Source: Deltaproteobacteria bacterium (GTDB taxonomy: Bacteria > Desulfobacterota > Binatia > HRBIN30 > JACQVA1). From it: DNA of 64,000 nt. The stretch lies in assembly GCA_016178705.1 (NCBI GenBank), contig JACOST010000003.1, positions 1-64,000 of the forward strand. The letters are read 5' to 3'. The first letter of the stretch is position 1; the number at the start of each line of letters is the position of its first letter. Below the pieces are notes generated by a model. The model did not search any database. It was not told the DNA's origin and saw only the letters and a list, made by a program, of their open reading frames with translations. Below, piece after piece: positions 3,618 through 50,113 of this stretch. The translations under genes were made by a program, and so were the position numbers.

Positions 3618-4928
3618 TCAGCGCGCGACGTTCGCGCGGCGCAACCCGAACGCCGCAACGCCAAACAGGAGCGCAATGCCGAGCAAGAGTCCGGTTCGGT
3701 CGAGCGTCGGCGCTGACGTCGGGTTGAGCGAGAAAAACGCCTGTCCGTTTCCAAACCGGGGCGAGCCATCGATGATCGCGAGCCCTTCCGCTTCGTCGAA
3801 CTCAGCCTGATCGCCGGGCACGCCTGTTTCCTGTCCCTCTTCACCGCTGATGCTGAACGCGTTGCTCAGCGCCACTGCTCCGCCCGTCCCCGTCGCCTTG
3901 GCACCGTAAGCCTCTTCCTCGTTCTCGTTGCCGACGTAAAGGAATTGACCGCTGAGTAGCGAGGTGAACGCCGAGCCCTCGTTTTCCGGCCCCCCGTCCC
4001 CCGGCAGGTCGAAGATCTTGGTAAAGCTTCCGGGTGTTATGCCGCTCGGACCGGTGGTTGTGAACACTTCGTTGTTCTGGCTCAGAAACAGGTTGGCATT
4101 GCCCGGGCCGAACACGATCGTATTGTCACTCATGATGTTGGGGGCGTCACCACCGGTGCTGGCATCCGCCCACACGCTGACGAGACCCGTGCATGGCGCC
4201 TCAATAATGCAGATTTTGAACACGAACTCCGAGCCGCTGTCCGACGCGAAGATGCAGGTGCCATCGGTCGTCAGCCGAATGTCCGAGCCGGTCGCCTCGT
4301 GACCCGAGCCATCGGCAATCGTGACGACAAAGTTCGGCGCCCCGAGATCACCGTTGGTCGGATTGATCGGCAGGCGCCACAGTTCTTTGCCATCGCTGTT
4401 CACCACCGCGTAGAGGAAGTTGCCAAGCACCGCCAGGCCCGTACCTTGCCAATCGGGTTTGAACGTGAACCGCTTGATGTGACCGCTGCCACCATTGGTG
4501 TCGACGTGCTGCAGATCGAAGCGGTAGAACGCGAGCCCAGACTCTTCCGCGTTCTCTTCCTGCACATAGGCGAAGTGTCCGTTCGGCGTCACCGCCACCG
4601 GGTCGGGATCTCCACTCTCGAAGGTTTGATTGCCTGTCGTCGAATTCGCCAGGGCGATGCCCTGCTTCGGGTTTACGGTGCCATCGTTGAGGATCGGCAG
4701 CGCAATGAGATTGCGCCCCTCATCAACAGGCTCACCAAAGCTCTCTTCGTTGACGATCAGCAGCGTCTTACCCGACCAGTTCGGCACGAACAACGGGAAC
4801 CGAGCCTGGCTCGCCCGTGACAACCCCGTCACGACGAGAAACGATACCACCAGGGTATGCAGGGCCGTGCGAACGATCACGCCCGTCAATGTCGTTGCCT
4901 TCGGTACCAACAAAGACTCCAGCCTCAT
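3618..4928 (-). CDS. Secreted IPTL-type-anchored protein, paralog 1
   Basis: A 436-aa exported protein: Sec signal peptide (about residues 1-43), two-block ectodomain, and a C-terminal tripartite sorting tail. Block A runs from NWSGKTLLIVNEE to FVFKIC; block B from SVWADAS to GSPRFGNGQAFFSLN. The tail has APTL, then a hydrophobic helix (GLLLGIALLFGVAAFGL), then basic RRANVAR, an IPTL-CTERM-like signal expected to be cut by exosortase H (gene at 49053). The start at 4928 is chosen by the paralog's N-terminus and an AAGGAGGAGGAG site directly upstream. It lies about 70 bp downstream of paralog 2, to which it is near-identical in many stretches: a recent tandem duplication. Ectodomain function is unknown; a beta-propeller-like closed fold is inferred. 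Confidence 0.85.
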   Translation of the reverse strand: MRLESLLVPKATTLTGVIVRTALHTLVVSFLVVTGLSRASQARFPLFVPNWSGKTLLIVNEESFGEPVDEGRNLIALPILNDGTVNPKQGIALANSTTGNQTFESGDPDPVAVTPNGHFAYVQEENAEESGLAFYRFDLQHVDTNGGSGHIKRFTFKPDWQGTGLAVLGNFLYAVVNSDGKELWRLPINPTNGDLGAPNFVVTIADGSGHEATGSDIRLTTDGTCIFASDSGSEFVFKICIIEAPCTGLVSVWADASTGGDAPNIMSDNTIVFGPGNANLFLSQNNEVFTTTGPSGITPGSFTKIFDLPGDGGPENEGSAFTSLLSGQFLYVGNENEEEAYGAKATGTGGAVALSNAFSISGEEGQETGVPGDQAEFDEAEGLAIIDGSPRFGNGQAFFSLNPTSAPTLDRTGLLLGIALLFGVAAFGLRRANVAR

Positions 4929-5001
4929 GGTTCTCCTCCTCCTTGAAACGTGGGCCAGACCGTGGCTCAAGCCGGCAAACTTACAGTAGTGTGACTAGAC
5001 T

Positions 5002-6282
5002 TCAGCGCGCAATGTTCGCGCGGCGCAACCCGAAGGTCGCAACACCGAACAGGAGCGCGATGCCGAGCAAGAGTCCGGTTCGGTCGAGCGTCGGTGCCGA
5101 CGTGGGGTTGAGGGAGAAGAATGCCTGTCCGTTGCCGAACCGTGGCGAGCCATCGATAATGGCGAGCCCTTCCGCTTCATCGAACTCGGCGAGATCGCCG
5201 GGCACGGCCGTTTCCGCGCCTTCTTCACCACTGATGTCGAACGCGCCGCTCAGGGCCACGGCCCCGCCCGTTCCGGTTACCTTGGCGCCGTAGGCCTCCT
5301 CTTCGTCCTCGTTACCCACGTAGAGGAACTGACCACTGAGGAGAGACGTGAACGCGGAACCTTCGTTTTCCGGGCCCTTACCCGGCAGATCGAAGATCTT
5401 GGCAAAACTCCCGGGCGTTATGCCGCTCGGGCCAGTAGTAGTGAACACTTCGTTGTTCTGGCTCAGAAACAGGTTGCCGTTACCCGGGCCGAACACGATG
5501 GTGTGGTCGCTCATGATATTCGGGGCGTCACCGCCGCTGCCCGCATCCGCCCACAGGCTGACGACGGTGCCGCAGATTTTGAACACAAATTCCGAGCCGT
5601 TGTCCGAGGCGAAGATGCACGTACCATCGGTGGTCAATCGAACATCCGAGCCGAACGCCTGGTGGCCCGAGCCATCGTCGATCGTCGCGACAAAGCTCGG
5701 TGTCCCGAGATTGCCGTTGCTCGGATTGATCGGCATCCGCCACAGCTCGTCTGTATCGTTGTCCACCACCGCGTAGAGGAAGTTGTCGAGCACCGCCAAG
5801 CCTTTACCTTGCCATGACTCATCGAACTGAAATCTCTTGATGTGGCCGCTGCCACCGTTGGTGTCGACGTGCTGCAAGTCGAAACGGTAGAACGCGAGCC
5901 CAGGGTCATCGCTGTCCTCTTCTTGCACATAGGCGAAGCGGCCATCCGGCGTCACGGCCACTGGATCGGGGTCTTCCGAGAAAGTTTGATTGCCCTGGGT
6001 TGAATTCGCCAGGGCAATGCCCTGCTTCGGGTTCACGGTGCCATCGTTGAGGATCGGCAGCGCAATGAGATTGCGCCCCTCATTGAACTCCAAAGTCTCT
6101 TCGTTGACGATCAGGAGCGTCTTCCCCGACCAGTTCGGCACCCACAAGGGGAAGCGGGCGTGACTCGTGCCCGCCAGCCCGGTTACGATCAGGAGCGACA
6201 CCATCAGGGTTTGCAGTCCGGTGCGAATGATCGCGCCCGCCCATACGGTTGCCTTCGGTGCCGATGAAGATTTGAGTCTCAT
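5002..6282 (-). CDS. Secreted IPTL-type-anchored protein, paralog 2
   Basis: A 426-aa paralog of the downstream gene: signal peptide to about residue 42 (ending SHA), block A at residues 49-237, block B at 241-392, sorting tail at 396-426 (APTLDRTG, hydrophobic stretch, RRANIAR). It lacks the short Cys-containing insert (IIEAPC) that paralog 1 carries between blocks. The ATG at 6282 follows GGAGGGAG. Same strand as paralog 1 with a short gap, so they are probably co-transcribed and end at the terminator at 3555-3588. Repeated phrases such as AEFDEAEGLAIIDGSPRF and VAVTPDGRFAYVQEE suggest a protein of related beta-sheet blades. Likely exported, then processed at PTL and held at the cell surface. 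Confidence 0.85.
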   Translation of the reverse strand: MRLKSSSAPKATVWAGAIIRTGLQTLMVSLLIVTGLAGTSHARFPLWVPNWSGKTLLIVNEETLEFNEGRNLIALPILNDGTVNPKQGIALANSTQGNQTFSEDPDPVAVTPDGRFAYVQEEDSDDPGLAFYRFDLQHVDTNGGSGHIKRFQFDESWQGKGLAVLDNFLYAVVDNDTDELWRMPINPSNGNLGTPSFVATIDDGSGHQAFGSDVRLTTDGTCIFASDNGSEFVFKICGTVVSLWADAGSGGDAPNIMSDHTIVFGPGNGNLFLSQNNEVFTTTGPSGITPGSFAKIFDLPGKGPENEGSAFTSLLSGQFLYVGNEDEEEAYGAKVTGTGGAVALSGAFDISGEEGAETAVPGDLAEFDEAEGLAIIDGSPRFGNGQAFFSLNPTSAPTLDRTGLLLGIALLFGVATFGLRRANIAR

Positions 6283-8789: not shown

Positions 8790-10061
8790 CTACACTGAAA
8801 ACAAGCGCCGACGGCCCAGCGTACCGGCGCCGATGGCGAGCAGGATCGCCGCGCACAACAGCAAGCCCCACGTACTCAGCGTCGGGGCGGCACCGGCCTC
8901 GCAGATCTTGAAGATCAAGTTGGTCCCGGAGTCCGACGCCAACAGACATCCGCCCAACGTTGTGAGCCGCGAGCCGCTGCCGTTGGCCACGTTACCGTTG
9001 CCATCGTCGATCGCGGTGACGAACCGCAGATCGCTGAGATTGCCCGTGGCGGAGTCCATCGCCATGCTGAAGAGACCGTGGGTGCCGCCACCGATGTTTG
9101 CCGTCGCGTACAGTCTCCAGCCCAAGACCGCCAACCCGTCATGGAGCCACTTCTCGACGAAGTCGAACCGCTGCAGGTGGCTGGTCCCGCCGCTTGAATC
9201 GACGTTCTGCAGGTCGAAGCGATAGAAGTCCTTGTCCTCATTCGCGTTGCCTTCGTCGTGGACATACGCGAAGCGGGCGTCCGGCGTCACCGCCAAGCTA
9301 CCCGGGTCCGGCGCGTTGACGAAGGGACCGCTATTCGGTGACGCCAACGCGTACCCGGTCGGATCGACGCTACCGTTCTTACGAATGATCAAGGCCACCA
9401 GATTCTGGTCCTCCTCGTTCACGATCAGCAGCGTCTTGCCCGACCAATTGGCATCGACGACGGGAAAGTTCTGACCGTTCACGCTCAGTGGAGTGCCCGA
9501 GAACGACGTGGCAAAGAACGGCGTCCTGTTCACGTCGTTGAAGCGCGGTGATCCCGCGATGACCGCGAGACCTTCCGCCTCGTCGAAGTCCGCCGGCTCA
9601 CCGGTGTCGGCGATATCCGGCGGATTCGTCGTACCGTCGGGGTCGGTAGTACGCGCGGTGCCGAGGCTGATGCCGATCCCGCTGCCGGTAATCGGCACCT
9701 GGTAGGCTTCCTCCTCGGACTCGTTACCGACGAAGAGGTACGACATGCCATTGATGTCCGACACGGCCGAGCCTTCGTTGGTACCAGAGTTCGGCAGGGT
9801 CTTCACGTGCGTGAATATTCCCGGTATGCCGCCAGACGGACCGGTGGTCGCGAATACGTTGCCGCTCTGACTCAGGAAGAGATTGCCTGCACCGACGGCA
9901 ATCGTGTGAGAGGTACTGATGCCGGGGCCCTTCTTCGAGTTCGCATTGGCCCAGACGGTCACCTTGAGGTCGACACCAACCGCTCGCACTGTAGCCGGCT
10001 GCACCAATCCAATCGCTAGAAAGATGAAGAGTAACGCGCGTCGAGCCGTCTTGCTTCGCAT
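8790..10061 (-). CDS. Circularly permuted paralog with IPTL tail
   Basis: A 423-aa exported protein related to the genes at 3618 and 5002 but with ectodomain blocks swapped. After the signal peptide (1-27) comes block B (residues 33-192, VTVWANANS to GSPRFNDVNRTPFFA), then block A (203-387, ANWSGKTLLIVNEE to NLIFKIC), then the sorting tail at 392-423 (APTLSTWG, hydrophobic helix, GRRRLFSV). The PTLSTWG motif is a very good IPTLxxWG match, so this is the most typical exosortase H substrate in the window. Preserving both blocks while reversing order indicates circular permutation, which implies a closed fold with neighbouring termini, such as a beta-propeller. Function is unknown. Confidence 0.85.
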   Translation of the reverse strand: MRSKTARRALLFIFLAIGLVQPATVRAVGVDLKVTVWANANSKKGPGISTSHTIAVGAGNLFLSQSGNVFATTGPSGGIPGIFTHVKTLPNSGTNEGSAVSDINGMSYLFVGNESEEEAYQVPITGSGIGISLGTARTTDPDGTTNPPDIADTGEPADFDEAEGLAVIAGSPRFNDVNRTPFFATSFSGTPLSVNGQNFPVVDANWSGKTLLIVNEEDQNLVALIIRKNGSVDPTGYALASPNSGPFVNAPDPGSLAVTPDARFAYVHDEGNANEDKDFYRFDLQNVDSSGGTSHLQRFDFVEKWLHDGLAVLGWRLYATANIGGGTHGLFSMAMDSATGNLSDLRFVTAIDDGNGNVANGSGSRLTTLGGCLLASDSGTNLIFKICEAGAAPTLSTWGLLLCAAILLAIGAGTLGRRRLFSV

Positions 10062-22374: not shown

Positions 22375-25374
22375 GTGAGCATCCACGATAGACAAAAGCG
22401 CGTTTGCCTTTGGCTTCGCACAATCGGCGTGAGCGTGATTCTCCTCGGCGTCGGGACATTGCGTCCACCGACTGCATCAGCGGCGGTGTTCAACGTCGAT
22501 CGTTTCGACGACCCCAGCCCGGTAGCGATGGCCTGTACGGCCGCGGCCAACAACTGCAGCCTGCGCGGTGCGATCGCGAAGGCCAACGGCAACGGTCTCA
22601 CCGACACCATCAACGTGCCGGCAGGCATCTACACATTGGACTTCGCAACCTTTGACGAGTTGACGATATCGAGCGACCTGACGATTCAAGGGGCGGGCGC
22701 GGGCACCTGCGACGGCACCGACACCTGCATTCAGGCGAGCAGCAGCGAGCCAGGAGATATCGGCGCCGCCGACAACGGCGTCTTCCTCGTCACCGCCGGC
22801 ATGGTCACGATCCGCGGCGTCACCATTCGACATGGCGTTGGGCGCTTTCCAATGAGTTTCCCGCTCGCCGGCGGGGTCACGGTTGAAGCCGGCGCGACGC
22901 TCGATCTGCGCGACAGCACGATCACGTTAAACCGAGCCGAATTTGGCGCCGGGGTGGTGAACTTCGGCACGACCACGGTTCGCGACACCCAGGTGATCGG
23001 AAACCCCCCGCCGGCCAGCTTTCCAAGCGGCCTGGCGCTGTGCGGCGGCGGACTCGCGAATTTCGGATCGTTGACGCTCATCGACTCGCTCGTGGGCGGC
23101 AATGCCGCCGCGTTTGGCGGCGGCATCTGCAACCTGTCCGTACCCGGCGGCGGCGACGCCGCGCTCATGCTCACCAACACCGAAGTGGTCGAGAACCTCG
23201 CCGTCTTCGGCGGTGGGATCTACAACGATGTCGGCGATCTCTTCTTCTCGTTTACGAGCAACGCCGAGTCGGCACCGGGAATCGCGCCGGTCCTTGGCGC
23301 CGCCACGGTGACAACGAATGGCCACACCGCCATCGGCGGGAATCTCGCCCTTTATGACGGCGGGGGCGTGGTCAATACGCGCTTCCCCTTCTTCGACCCG
23401 ACGGCGGACCCAATCCCGGGTGACGCCACCGCCACGTTCACAGAGAGCCTCATCGTGGAAAACACCGCCGCGTGCGGTGGCGGTGGCGTGTTCAACGACG
23501 GCCTCATCATTCCAGTGTTCGCCGAGGAAAACCTGCTCTTCCAGCTTGTTGAGTTTATCATCTTCAACGGACCGCACGGCTGCGGAGTTCCGGTCGGTGC
23601 CGACTCCACTAGCGCCGCGGATGGAATCCCAACCTTCGACCATCCGCCAACGCTGACGACCACACGTTCCGACGTCCTCGGCAACGTGGCCATCTTCGGT
23701 AGCGGGGTCGCGAACACCGGGGGGCAGGCGAGCCTGTCCGACGGCACGATCAACCAGAACGGCTTCACGCCCCCCTGTCTCTCGATCGGCTCCACCGTGT
23801 GCGCGCAATCGTTACCGCTCATTATGATGGTGATCCCAGAGTTCGGCGGCGGCATCTACAACACGGCAGGCGACCTCACGGTCGATCGCTGCACGGTCGA
23901 CAGCAACATTGTGGAACTCGCCGGCGGCGGCATCCTCAATGACGCGGGATTTCTTCTTTCCGAGGTGTTCTTCCCGATTCCACCCAACTTGTTGCCGCCC
24001 GCAACCTTGACGCTGACGAACAGCACGATCAGCCGCAACCAAGCTGATGCCGGCGCCGGCCTGGAGAATTTCGCCGCCAGCACGACCGCCACCAACAGCA
24101 CCTTTTCCGGCAATGTCGCGCAATTCGACGGGGGCGGGATCGAAAACGATGCGCTCGGCGAGGTGGTGCTCAACAACGTGACGATCACCAACAACACCGC
24201 CGGCGACGGCGGGAGTTCCGGCAACGGCGGCGGGATCTTCGAGACGTCGGGCGATGACACCATCGTCGTGAAGAACAGCATCATCGCCGGCAACATCGAC
24301 GCCGTCGGCGACGACGGCAGCACGCCGGATTGTGCGAACCCGAACGGCACCGTGATGTCATTGGGTTACAACCTCATCGGCGACGCCACCGGCTGCCCGA
24401 GTACCTTTACCGAGACCGGCGATCAGGCCGGCGATTCCACCACCCCGATCGACCCACGCCTGGCCAAGCTCGCCAACAACGGCGGACCGACCAAGACGCA
24501 TCGGCCGCTCAGCAACAGTCCAGCGTCCCTGGCCATCGACGGCGTCGGCATGGACGCGTGCAAGGACAAGAACGGCGACCCGATCACCACCGATCAGCGC
24601 GGCTACGCGCGGCCGCAGCGCAACAGTTGCGACATCGGCGCCTACGAAGTCGGCTGCGGCGACGGCGTCGTCGATGACGGCGAAGAGTGCGACGACGGCA
24701 ACACCACCGACGGCGACTGTTGCTCATCGACCTGCCAAGCCGAGGTGCCCGGTTCGCCGTACGACACCGACGGCGACGGGGTGTGCGACGGCTTCGAATC
24801 CCCCAGCGGCACCGACGACGATCCCATGACCGCCTCGTATCAACCCCCCGGGGGCCCGCTCCTCGTCCAACTCAAGCTGGTGAGCGGCTGCGACCGCATC
24901 CTCAATTTCCATTTCCTGCACGAGAGCGACTTGCCCGTGCAGGATCCTGTCCTGCAATTCCCGTTCGGTCTGGTCAGTTTCAAACTCTGCAGCGACAGCA
25001 ACCCCCGCGACAACGACCCCTGCGACGGCACGTGTACTCAGGCCACGGTCAAGATCACCTTCCCCAACGCCAATCTCACGCAGCCGGGATTCGTCTATCG
25101 GAAGTTCGACCCGACGACGAACATGTACTTCAATCCGCACGGCGTGACGTTGAATGGAAACATGGCGACCTTCACCCTCACCGATGGCGGGGTGAACGAT
25201 ACCGATCACAAGATCAACGGCATGATCACCGACCCGAGCGGCCCCGGCACCGCCGGAACGGGGCCGAGGCGCGATACCGCCCCGGTGCTGTCCCCCTCTG
25301 GGCTCGGGTTGGCTGCGCTGGCCTTGCTGGGCCTCGCTGTCTTCCAATTGCGGCGACGGCGTCCCATCCAATAG
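22375..25374 (+). CDS. Surface beta-helix protein with choice-of-anchor Q/U and IPTL-like tail
   Basis: A 999-aa exported protein. Signal peptide to about residue 37. The CSLRGAIAKANGN motif opens a long right-handed beta-helix (polymorphic outer-membrane repeats with GGGI..N turns, residues about 60-690). Next is a choice-of-anchor Q end (LANNGGPTKTHRPL, TDQRGYARPQ, CDIGAYEVG), a DUF4215-like Cys repeat (CGDGVVDDGEECDDGN), a choice-of-anchor U-like domain (TLTDGGVNDTDHKINGMI), and a sorting tail APVLSPSG, hydrophobic helix, RRRR. GTG 22375 follows GGGAGGG and fits the signal peptide better than ATG 22327. Probably an exosortase H substrate displayed on the surface; beta-helix proteins of this type may adhere or degrade polysaccharide, but no catalytic motif was seen. 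Confidence 0.85.
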   Translation: MSIHDRQKRVCLWLRTIGVSVILLGVGTLRPPTASAAVFNVDRFDDPSPVAMACTAAANNCSLRGAIAKANGNGLTDTINVPAGIYTLDFATFDELTISSDLTIQGAGAGTCDGTDTCIQASSSEPGDIGAADNGVFLVTAGMVTIRGVTIRHGVGRFPMSFPLAGGVTVEAGATLDLRDSTITLNRAEFGAGVVNFGTTTVRDTQVIGNPPPASFPSGLALCGGGLANFGSLTLIDSLVGGNAAAFGGGICNLSVPGGGDAALMLTNTEVVENLAVFGGGIYNDVGDLFFSFTSNAESAPGIAPVLGAATVTTNGHTAIGGNLALYDGGGVVNTRFPFFDPTADPIPGDATATFTESLIVENTAACGGGGVFNDGLIIPVFAEENLLFQLVEFIIFNGPHGCGVPVGADSTSAADGIPTFDHPPTLTTTRSDVLGNVAIFGSGVANTGGQASLSDGTINQNGFTPPCLSIGSTVCAQSLPLIMMVIPEFGGGIYNTAGDLTVDRCTVDSNIVELAGGGILNDAGFLLSEVFFPIPPNLLPPATLTLTNSTISRNQADAGAGLENFAASTTATNSTFSGNVAQFDGGGIENDALGEVVLNNVTITNNTAGDGGSSGNGGGIFETSGDDTIVVKNSIIAGNIDAVGDDGSTPDCANPNGTVMSLGYNLIGDATGCPSTFTETGDQAGDSTTPIDPRLAKLANNGGPTKTHRPLSNSPASLAIDGVGMDACKDKNGDPITTDQRGYARPQRNSCDIGAYEVGCGDGVVDDGEECDDGNTTDGDCCSSTCQAEVPGSPYDTDGDGVCDGFESPSGTDDDPMTASYQPPGGPLLVQLKLVSGCDRILNFHFLHESDLPVQDPVLQFPFGLVSFKLCSDSNPRDNDPCDGTCTQATVKITFPNANLTQPGFVYRKFDPTTNMYFNPHGVTLNGNMATFTLTDGGVNDTDHKINGMITDPSGPGTAGTGPRRDTAPVLSPSGLGLAALALLGLAVFQLRRRRPIQ

Positions 25375-48516: not shown

Positions 48517-49056
48517 CTACTTCTTCTTCGCCTTCTGTCGCTTCGCCGGCTGCGGCGCGGGCGGCACCAGCTGCCACAACGCGCGCAGCTCCGGATAGGT
48601 CATGACAAACCACAAGCCCAGCGGCGCCACGACGAAGGCCACCAAGCCGGAGAACACCCCGAGCGTGTCTTTGAAAACATTGGGCTGATCCATGATGAAC
48701 GGATAGGTGAGCACCACGCCCACATCGATCAGGACGTACAACACGCTGCCCAGCGCGGCGGCAATCGCCGCGCGCTTGATACGGATGCCCGGCGTCGCCG
48801 CCACCAGCGCGAGGAACGGCACCATCCCCATCGACAACTGGGGTAACTGCACCAGCAGGTGCAGCTTACGAGTGCCGGAGTGAAAGATCGCATCGGTGGG
48901 TTTGATGTCGATCCACCACCCATTCACCAGCGGACTGATGGCGCGGGCGATCGTCAACACGGCGCTCCGAAACAGCGTCGCTACGTCAGCCGCCCACCAC
49001 AGGACGAGCAGGAGTGCGAAGCTCAGCAGAAAGATGCCGGCGAAGCGCCACTTCAT
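48517..49056 (-). CDS. Exosortase H-associated membrane protein
   Basis: A 179-aa integral membrane protein with about four transmembrane helices (FAGIFLLSFALLLVLWWAAD, MGMVPFLALVAATPG, AALGSVLYVLIDVGVVLTYP, FSGLVAFVVAPLGLWFVMTY) and a basic tail (KRQKAKKK). It matches the protein found next to XrtH in exosortase H loci. The ATG overlaps the xrtH stop as ATGA (49053-49056), so translation is coupled and the two are likely partners. The longer open frame to 49122 lies inside xrtH and is rejected. Its biochemical role in sorting is not known. Confidence 0.85.
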   Translation of the reverse strand: MKWRFAGIFLLSFALLLVLWWAADVATLFRSAVLTIARAISPLVNGWWIDIKPTDAIFHSGTRKLHLLVQLPQLSMGMVPFLALVAATPGIRIKRAAIAAALGSVLYVLIDVGVVLTYPFIMDQPNVFKDTLGVFSGLVAFVVAPLGLWFVMTYPELRALWQLVPPAPQPAKRQKAKKK

Positions 49057-49532
49057 CGACGCGACCACTCCACCCAGCTCATGGCGTACAACGTCACCAG
49101 CATCAGAAACGCGCCCTGCCACACGTACTCGTGAAAGTACGGGAACAACTGCGGCTTGAACTCGACCACGCGCACCAGCGTCGCAATACGAAACATGTTG
49201 ACGAACGTGAGGAGCACGACGCCCACCACCATCCCGATAGCCTTGGCGCTAAGCTTGGCCGGATAGGCGGCGATGAAACTCGCGAGGACGAACAACACGA
49301 ACACGCCGGTACACTCGTGGTTGATGTCGAGGGTCATCCCCGCCACTGCGATGAGGTTGTCGTTCACGGTCGCCTCGCTGCCGACGAGTTGCGCCATCCA
49401 GGCGGCGGACACAGCAATGCCCTTCTCGAAGACGTGCAGATGATTCTGCAGCGAGGTGACCACGCTGAGCACACTGAACCCGATGAGGAAGGTAAAGAAG
49501 AGCACACTGAAGCGAACGATCGGCGATTTCAT
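49053..49532 (-). CDS. xrtH: Exosortase H (IPTLxxWG-CTERM-specific)
   Basis: A 159-aa membrane transpeptidase. Catalytic Cys74 is in NHECTGVFVLFVLASF, Arg115 in VNMFRIATLV, and His134 in PYFHEYVWQG: the Cys/Arg/His triad of exosortases. The short length and neighbour (XrtH-associated protein) mark it as exosortase H, whose known signal is IPTLxxWG. Several transmembrane spans. ATG 49532 is preferred; an in-frame ATG at 49544 also exists. It lies 56 bp downstream of an L,D-transpeptidase on the same strand, making a three-gene set with peptidoglycan crosslinking. Expected substrates in this window end PTL(S/D)..G or PVLSPSG, at 3618, 5002, 8790 and 22375. Confidence 0.88.
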   Translation of the reverse strand: MKSPIVRFSVLFFTFLIGFSVLSVVTSLQNHLHVFEKGIAVSAAWMAQLVGSEATVNDNLIAVAGMTLDINHECTGVFVLFVLASFIAAYPAKLSAKAIGMVVGVVLLTFVNMFRIATLVRVVEFKPQLFPYFHEYVWQGAFLMLVTLYAMSWVEWSRR

Positions 49533-49588
49533 GCAGCGCACCATAGAGAGCGGCGCCGGTGGACTCAAGCGCCGAGCTTGGCGCCGGC

Positions 49589-50113
49589 TTACGGCTCGAT
49601 GTCGATCGGCGTGCCGTCGTCCACCGCGCGCCAAATTTCTTCTATCGCAGTGTCGGTCACAGCAATGCAGCCATTGGTCCAGTCGCGCCAGTGATAGAGG
49701 CGGCCGAGCCAACTCGATCCGTTACGGAAGCCGTGAATCATGATGTCGCCACCCGGCGACACGCCGGCAGCATCCGCCTGCTCAACGTCGGCAGCGTCGG
49801 GATACGAGACGTGCAGTGAGAGATGAAATCGGCTCTCCGGGTTACGCCAGTCGAGCACGTAGTGGCCTTCGGGCGTCCTGCCGTCGCCCTCGCGTTGTTT
49901 GTGGCCAGCCGGATCCCAGCCCAATGCAACCCGGTACGACTTCAGGACGACCTCGCCCTGCATCAGACGCAGCCAGCGCTCACGCTTGCGGACCACGACG
50001 CGGTCCGCCTTCACGCCCGACGGCAATGGCGAAGGCAACCACATCGTGTACGCCAGGCACAGCAGCAGGCCGGTCGTCAGCAACGTCAGCGCTCGAGACC
50101 TTGCCTCAACCAT
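49589..50113 (-). CDS. L,D-transpeptidase (YkuD family)
   Basis: A 174-aa protein with one N-terminal membrane anchor (ALTLLTTGLLLCLAYTMWLP) and a YkuD catalytic domain: VRKRERWLRLMQGEVVLKSY, GRTPEGHYVLDWRNPESRFH, IMIHGFRNGSSW, and the active site DWTNGCIAVTDTAIEEIW with catalytic Cys. It would form 3-3 crosslinks in peptidoglycan or attach proteins to it. First gene of the exosortase H cluster on the minus strand. ATG 50113 gives a clean signal anchor; the longer start is not needed. Confidence 0.88.
   Translation of the reverse strand: MVEARSRALTLLTTGLLLCLAYTMWLPSPLPSGVKADRVVVRKRERWLRLMQGEVVLKSYRVALGWDPAGHKQREGDGRTPEGHYVLDWRNPESRFHLSLHVSYPDAADVEQADAAGVSPGGDIMIHGFRNGSSWLGRLYHWRDWTNGCIAVTDTAIEEIWRAVDDGTPIDIEP

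Follow-up and report, generated by a model that had tools for sequence, protein, structure and literature searches.

The exosortase/archaeosortase superfamily is defined by a cysteine, an arginine and a histidine residue. How exosortases recognise the tails of their cargo, and what that cargo is attached to, is the question on which the gene pair described here bears. For archaeosortase A of Haloferax volcanii, which recognises a tripartite tail, the portion of the source drawn on here proposes chemistry through a Cys thioester and an archaeal lipid amine as the acceptor (PMC7157517). In Methylomirabilis, an S-layer protein carries an IPTL-CTERM domain, according to the part of that report used here (PMC8671808), meaning that abundant proteins of the cell surface can carry IPTL-type tails.

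The window (the whole stretch of DNA that was analysed, 64,000 nucleotides) contains a minus-strand run of an L,D-transpeptidase (LDT), an exosortase and a membrane protein, the last two genes overlapping by ATGA; all three genes are present in the sequence as originally predicted. The features considered were:

49589..50113, minus strand: LDT, a YkuD-fold protein (PF03734, 62.7 bits against a cut-off of 23.4)
49053..49532, minus strand: single-domain exosortase of clade alpha, 159 aa, with Cys74, Arg115 and His134 (TIGR04178, PF09721)
48517..49056, minus strand: partner membrane protein, 179 aa, a probable pseudo-exosortase subunit (from adjacency, profile alignment and an AF2 model)
3618..4970, minus strand: beta-propeller-like protein with the tail SAPTLDRTG..LRRANVAR (tail match 3627-3716; PF10282 22.1 against 21.7)
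5002..6282, minus strand: paralogue of the 3618 gene, with the tail SAPTLDRTG (tail match 5014-5100)
8790..10061, minus strand: circularly permuted relative of the 3618 and 5002 products, with the tail AAPTLSTWG (tail match 8805-8891)
22375..25374, plus strand: 999-aa protein with the tail TAPVLSPSG (tail match 25276-25362)

Assignment of the 159-aa protein as a Cys/Arg/His exosortase was confirmed by TIGR04178 (exosortase/archaeosortase; 55.8 bits, cut-off 23) and PF09721 (40.6 bits, cut-off 25.7), with Cys74, Arg115 and His134 invariant in 15/15 aligned sequences, the window copy included. Its AF2 model had a pLDDT of 91.1, and a profile search with this exosortase returned no relative among solved structures (best E 0.33). 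The best-scoring named model was exosortase H (XrtH, TIGR04177; 68.8-69.1 bits), whose curated cut-off of 86 was not reached, so the earlier name “exosortase H” places the protein in the right neighbourhood but claims more than its score allows. The window's genome (G000) encodes three XrtH-like exosortases, on contigs C3 (the window), C11 (beta) and C16 (gamma), and 15/15 genomes of the same order have 2-4 exosortases each. A tree of 40 single-domain copies resolved three clades (alpha, beta and gamma), which recurred after 8 outside rows were added, in a tree that carried long-branch warnings. Assigned by profile score, alpha (the window's clade, with the signature NHECTG..FHEYVWQG) comprised 25 copies in 15/15 order genomes, beta comprised 2 copies confined to the family of the window's genome, and gamma comprised 14 copies in 14/15 order genomes. 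The XrtH cut-off was exceeded in 7/20 genomes, with no alpha copy among them (the best alpha copy among the 15 order genomes, from G093, scored 85.4 bits); the beta copy of G001 reached 92.5-92.7 bits. Restriction of XrtH proper to the beta copy was considered and rejected, as two gamma copies (in G052 and G077) and four copies from outside the order (in G080, G064, G070 and G028) also passed the cut-off.

Several variations on the exosortase theme were seen along the way. CTA replaces CTG at the active site of two alpha exosortases (L081 and L058), and eight fused proteins likewise have ECTA; the single exosortase of G070 and that of G028 have CNG at the active Cys. Nine loci in class genomes (L032-L036 and L045-L048) hold 542-698-aa frames with an exosortase, continuing into EELAFRGYL in 7/9 (the sequence of 2/9 was read only to before this position); this motif resembles CPBP proteases, and the long frames are presumably the known exosortase-protease type. 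Gamma exosortases have conserved neighbour families (F3, F7, F8 and F9): a divergent F3 gene of 841-871 aa lies upstream of the exosortase in 6/14 gamma loci (L066, L075, L082, L085, L089 and L093), with an F8 gene, CBS-like by eye, beyond it in 5/6.

The original prediction took the window copy to be the genome's XrtH, sorting the window's IPTL-like tails, with the LDT tying them to peptidoglycan. LDT/YkuD proteins carry a Cys motif, and the window's LDT contains HGF..TNGCI; its YkuD domain exceeded the PF03734 cut-off, and its best NCBIfam match was a DpaA-type amidase (37.6 against a cut-off of 365). Adjacency within the window, the rank of XrtH as best-scoring named model, the presence of alpha in every order genome and the existence in G001 of tails other than IPTLSEWG while no gamma was found there are all consistent with this version. 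Yet the genome has three exosortases, the window copy falls below the XrtH cut-off, and no homologue of the LDT was found at any of 44 further order loci with an exosortase or at 20 species-collection loci (13 of which are order loci again). Upstream flanks at the order loci had a median of about 5 kb (998 bases at L083), and L090 is uninformative because only 40 bases lie upstream. Furthermore, the sister genus locus has a transporter of the same family (F44) directly before the exosortase and no LDT. The LDT is therefore probably, on synteny, an accidental neighbour; a peptidoglycan link through it is rejected because its homologues are missing at the other exosortase loci examined, and we consider the version as a whole highly improbable.

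The gene that did accompany the exosortase was the partner, which lay directly downstream at 40/41 order loci, its profile match starting 8-40 bases after that of the exosortase; at the 41st (L082, G071) the contig runs out after a further 61 bases. At 7 loci outside Binatia, the partner was separate in 5, fused in 1 (L176) and not found in 1 (L169). Its earlier description as an “exosortase H-associated membrane protein” holds at the level of family: the alpha partners of G037 and G065 exceed the cut-off of NF041730 (XrtH-associated membrane protein; 36.1 and 35.3 against 35) and cluster with the window partner in family F1, and others are recognised by the model below its cut-off. The window partner itself did not match NF041730, with 0 matches at E<=1 in its genome (curated cut-off 35). 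Because the model recognises the G037 and G065 partners, findings on the partner may hold for the NF041730 family.

Alignment of the exosortase and partner profiles (hhalign) gave a probability of 84.1 and an E-value of 7.5e-6 over 160 columns at 15% identity. Composition alone can make membrane proteins resemble one another, so shuffled controls were made by permuting partner columns within hydropathy bins. Six pairings scored 33.8-46.6 (probability 52-90), compared to 11.8-13.7 when reversed and to shuffle means of 14.8-16.3 (largest 31.0), with 0/60 shuffles reaching the observed score in each. Five further pairings, with halves of the fusion proteins described below added, scored 30.9-52.4 (probability 41-94) against shuffle means of 13.7-17.2, with 0/40 in each and a largest shuffle of 32.3, where the observed score was 51.0. 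The sets used in these pairings share rows (51 partner rows, 39 distinct; 54 exosortase rows, 42 distinct). Against the same exosortase profile, six non-exosortase membrane families scored 12.5-18.2, and F47, a distant EpsH-like exosortase family, 39.6. The AF2 model of the partner (pLDDT 92.7) has the element order H H E E E h H H H with one more short helix at its end, compared to H H E E E H H H in the exosortase; the shared order runs from two helices through a three-strand meander to a short helix and two long ones. Exosortase and partner may thus have the same fold, the likeness of the models lying in the order of their elements.

These comparisons bear on whether the partner might instead be an unrelated helical membrane protein that accompanies the exosortase, as a chaperone or in handling lipid, and matches it through shared membrane composition. 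Such a protein would fit the 15% identity and the near-failure of small clade-wise profiles, where the alpha exosortase gave a probability of 7.5 with alpha partners (score 24.4, reversed 12.2) and 7.9 with gamma partners, gamma and beta exosortases gave 1.8 and 0.4 with their own partners, and the beta partner had no detectable match to exosortases. It would also fit the weak scores of the partner against full-length EpsH-type exosortases (16.5-23.6) and the result of a PDB fold search, in which neither model found a match at E<=0.001. Composition as an explanation is, however, hard to reconcile with shuffles that keep hydropathy class and lose the signal in all eleven tests, with the low scores of the six other membrane families and with a three-strand meander at the same place in an equal order of helices and strands. 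We regard an unrelated partner as unlikely, and fusion and adjacency would make the protein a subunit even then. The notion that the partner is the missing N-terminal half of EpsH was rejected, as it scored only 17.1-18.3 against the N half of three EpsH-type sequences.

In the alignment with a probability of 84.1, on which the result depends, the position of Cys74 is occupied by Cys in 0/39 distinct partners (Ser, Ala, Gln, Met, Phe and others occur), and no conserved Arg or His was found in the partner regions aligned with those of Arg115 and His134. Near the invariant Asn112, the same alignment has a polar residue in 38/39 distinct partners (His 13, Gln 13, Asp 12). Some function at this residue is possible, and because it is kept, the term “dead” for the partner is one that we infer.

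Natural fusions of the two proteins occur in the phylum of Nitrospiraceae bacterium UBA6898, whose locus L176 encodes one 350-aa frame with an exosortase as its first half (91 bits to the local profile) and a second half that aligns weakly with partners. Among 295 genomes of this phylum, drawn from a larger group, 30 matched the fusion; 8 of these (9 loci, the query's genome included) matched over the exosortase half and the partner half alike within a single frame of 336-378 aa, and the remainder matched the first half only. The fused second half (8 aligned) matched the partner family with a probability of 93.7 (score 50.5; shuffle mean 12.8, 0/40), though it matched gamma partners poorly (23.2, 1/40 shuffles). 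Alone, it scored 18.3 against the exosortase profile, with 4/40 shuffles as good, and 15.7 against the fused first half. At 5/8 fusion loci, a protein with a Pro-hydrophobic-basic tail lies within about 1.5 kb; most of these tailed frames are incomplete at the end of the stretch. The 517-aa frame at L176 opens with a signal-like stretch (by eye). Neighbours at L189, L190, L191, L194 and L195 share the tail VP[VIA]GNWPL-hydrophobic-basic (ATPAGNRIL in L194), and no NCBIfam family exceeded its cut-off for the two neighbour tails scanned.

Four things were observed: the two genes are almost always adjacent, their products are distantly related when deep profiles are compared, the partner lacks the catalytic Cys, and the two are naturally fused in another phylum. 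The pair at 48517-49532 is, in our judgement, probably a two-subunit exosortase in which an active subunit is joined by a paralogue that has the same fold but is catalytically dead. With rather less assurance, we also lean towards a general form of this reading, where small XrtH-type exosortases would be obligate active/dead heterodimers that arose by duplication, the XrtH-associated family would be the dead subunit, the one-chain proteins of the Nitrospiraceae phylum would be its fused form, and the pair would have multiplied in genomes of this Binatia order, giving two or three sorters that work in parallel.

As for cargo, four exported-looking proteins with related tails had been predicted in the window, and all were recovered: SAPTLDRTG (3618 and 5002), AAPTLSTWG (8790) and TAPVLSPSG (22375), each a P-[TV]-L tail that leads into a hydrophobic stretch and a C-terminal Arg. 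Signal peptides were judged from the N-termini by eye, and those of the 3618 and 22375 products look signal-like. The 22375 product has choice-of-anchor Q and U domains (NF041518, 66.3 against 25; NF041766, 58.5 against 32). The 3618 and 5002 products are 81% identical and form one family with the 8790 product, so that the clustering in the window amounts to two independent cases. Within this family the 8790 product is a circular permutation (residues 34-191 correspond to 241-397 in the 5002 product, and 199-387 to 44-237), and the kind of tail is common to all three. The IPTL-CTERM model (TIGR04174, cut-off 20.5 bits) scored the 8790 product at 17.4 as a whole protein and 22.7 in a genome search, scored the 22375 product at 14.1 and 19.6, respectively, and did not match the 3618 and 5002 products; 1/4 window tails thus reached 20.5 bits in the genome search and 0/4 as whole proteins. 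Of the genome's 4 matches above 20.5 bits, 2 are C-terminal tails (on C14 and at C3:8808). Another match above the cut-off (G000:C31:327988-328059, L006) is not C-terminal and opens a 174-aa frame (GAPTMTTWALVILSLLAG), either as an N-terminal anchor or by chance.

To establish the distribution of these tails, a profile (A1) of 34 aligned tails from the order was searched against 35 genomes, comprising the 15 order genomes, 5 selected genomes of the class that have a single small exosortase (G082 and G091 are among class genomes with small frames outside these 5) and 15 class genomes in which no exosortase was found, the first on a list of 104 such genomes, with one 74% complete genome omitted. 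Tails were called from profile searches only, with matches listed down to an E-value of about 0.0096. At E<=1e-3, the profile matched 14/15 order genomes, 5/5 outside-order genomes with an exosortase and 0/15 without. The order count is partly circular because the profile was built from the order's tails (13/15 order genomes still matched at this threshold without the 34 training tails); the 5/5 result is not, since none of those genomes' tails are in the profile. The sole exception in the order was G008, with three exosortases and no tail at E<=1e-3. Among the matches listed for the window's genome at E<=0.1, 11 of 12 were C-terminal and 1 was internal to a frame (C13); 4 of the 11 C-terminal matches listed lie in the window. 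Tails therefore track exosortases, as anticipated, and those of the window are a degenerate form of IPTL enriched in exosortase-bearing genomes. Tails at L137, L138 and L141 (class genomes G070, G028 and G064) have the form VPATSPWSQAG.

Which exosortase handles which tail is a separate matter, and the window tails have three candidate sorters in this genome. The original view that sorter and cargo are seen together is correct insofar as the window holds both, but two more exosortases of the same kind are encoded elsewhere in the genome. The beta exosortase adjoins a tailed protein in 2/2 loci (IPTLSEWG in G001, VPATPIWG in G000 on C11) and is the only clade in the family of the window's genome with a profile-supported tailed neighbour. 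It goes at least halfway to being the other exosortase with a better-matched signal that would count against the window copy as sorter (beta on C11; its sister in G001 with 92.5-92.7 bits and IPTLSEWG). Within the stretches examined, no profile-supported tail was found beside any of the order's alpha or gamma exosortases, and at one EpsH-type locus a tail occurs at a distance of about 3 kb. The single exosortase of G080 has a VPTLSEWG protein within 0.9 kb, and that of G086 an IPTLSQWG protein within 2.4 kb. In G093, a 90-aa frame ending VPELDPGSASMGLALLAGGLLVFRGRRRRR (L092, C150, oriented 4072-4342; PEP-CTERM-like by eye, local E 0.036) immediately precedes one of the longer exosortases.

It is a serious possibility, if short of even, that gamma (C16) or beta (C11) sorts the window tails and that the window's alpha copy has other, unseen cargo. 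The near-universal presence of gamma in the order (14/15 genomes) and the tailed neighbour of beta in both its loci point that way, as do the three f9 class genomes with VPATSPWSQAG tails, whose single exosortase groups with gamma in 2/2 tested of the 3. On the other hand, no gamma was found in G001 (a 97% complete assembly), which still has the tails AAPVTSPWG and AAPLVSPP besides IPTLSEWG, and a Hydrogenedentota contig carries an alpha-like exosortase and, some 3 kb from it, a protein with the C-terminus EPIPAQSRFGL..TRRNHRGKGTQ (local E 0.001). In G001, the second gene from one of the alpha copies also ends, by eye, in AAPMSSPLALL..YRRVVRARPAEPVMS, where the tail profile gives no match. Overall, alpha and gamma are the likelier handlers of the four window tails. 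An attempt to assign one tail type to each exosortase yielded no pairing: the number of tails depends on genome and family no less than on exosortase clade.

A two-subunit exosortase could work as follows. Exosortase and partner, given their adjacency and fusion, would form a heterodimer in the cytoplasmic membrane, where the dead subunit may hold either the cargo's hydrophobic tail or the acceptor. The degenerate signal [AIV]P-[TVAL]-[LMS]-S-x-x-[GA] would mark where the live Cys cuts exported proteins, and the resulting thioester would pass the protein to an amine, a chemistry borrowed from archaeosortase A. By the same precedent, the acceptor would be a lipid rather than peptidoglycan. The genome's three exosortases would have the four tailed proteins of the window among their cargo. 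Should the partner be a dead copy of the enzyme, then the pair is the working unit and the exosortase alone may be inactive, and expression, purification and assay of these enzymes would have to change accordingly. It would also suggest where the tail binds, and the fused one-chain form would be a ready test object. A literature search that missed most subscription papers found no account of a dead exosortase subunit in print, which is weak evidence that this account is new.

Among described systems, the locus is closest to exosortase H (TIGR04177) with IPTL-CTERM (TIGR04174), with which it shares its best named model, single-domain size, tail shape and a partner directly downstream; it departs from that system in its score (69 against 86 bits), its own alpha signature and its degenerate tails. 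The XrtH-associated membrane protein (NF041730) occupies the same position as the partner, and the alpha partners of G037 and G065 pass its model. In contrast, the window partner has no match to it, and a family described only as a membrane protein here aligns with the exosortase profile. EpsH and PEP-CTERM share membership of the exosortase family, the C-terminal tripartite sorting tail and the logic of co-occurrence, in the part of the source used here (PMC1569441). EpsH is longer, as the window exosortase covers PF09721 positions 100-250 of 254. Archaeosortase A differs in its archaeal lipid acceptor and in that no dead partner subunit is described in the portion of the source cited, but its Cys thioester and tripartite tail provide the mechanistic precedent for the pair (PMC7157517).
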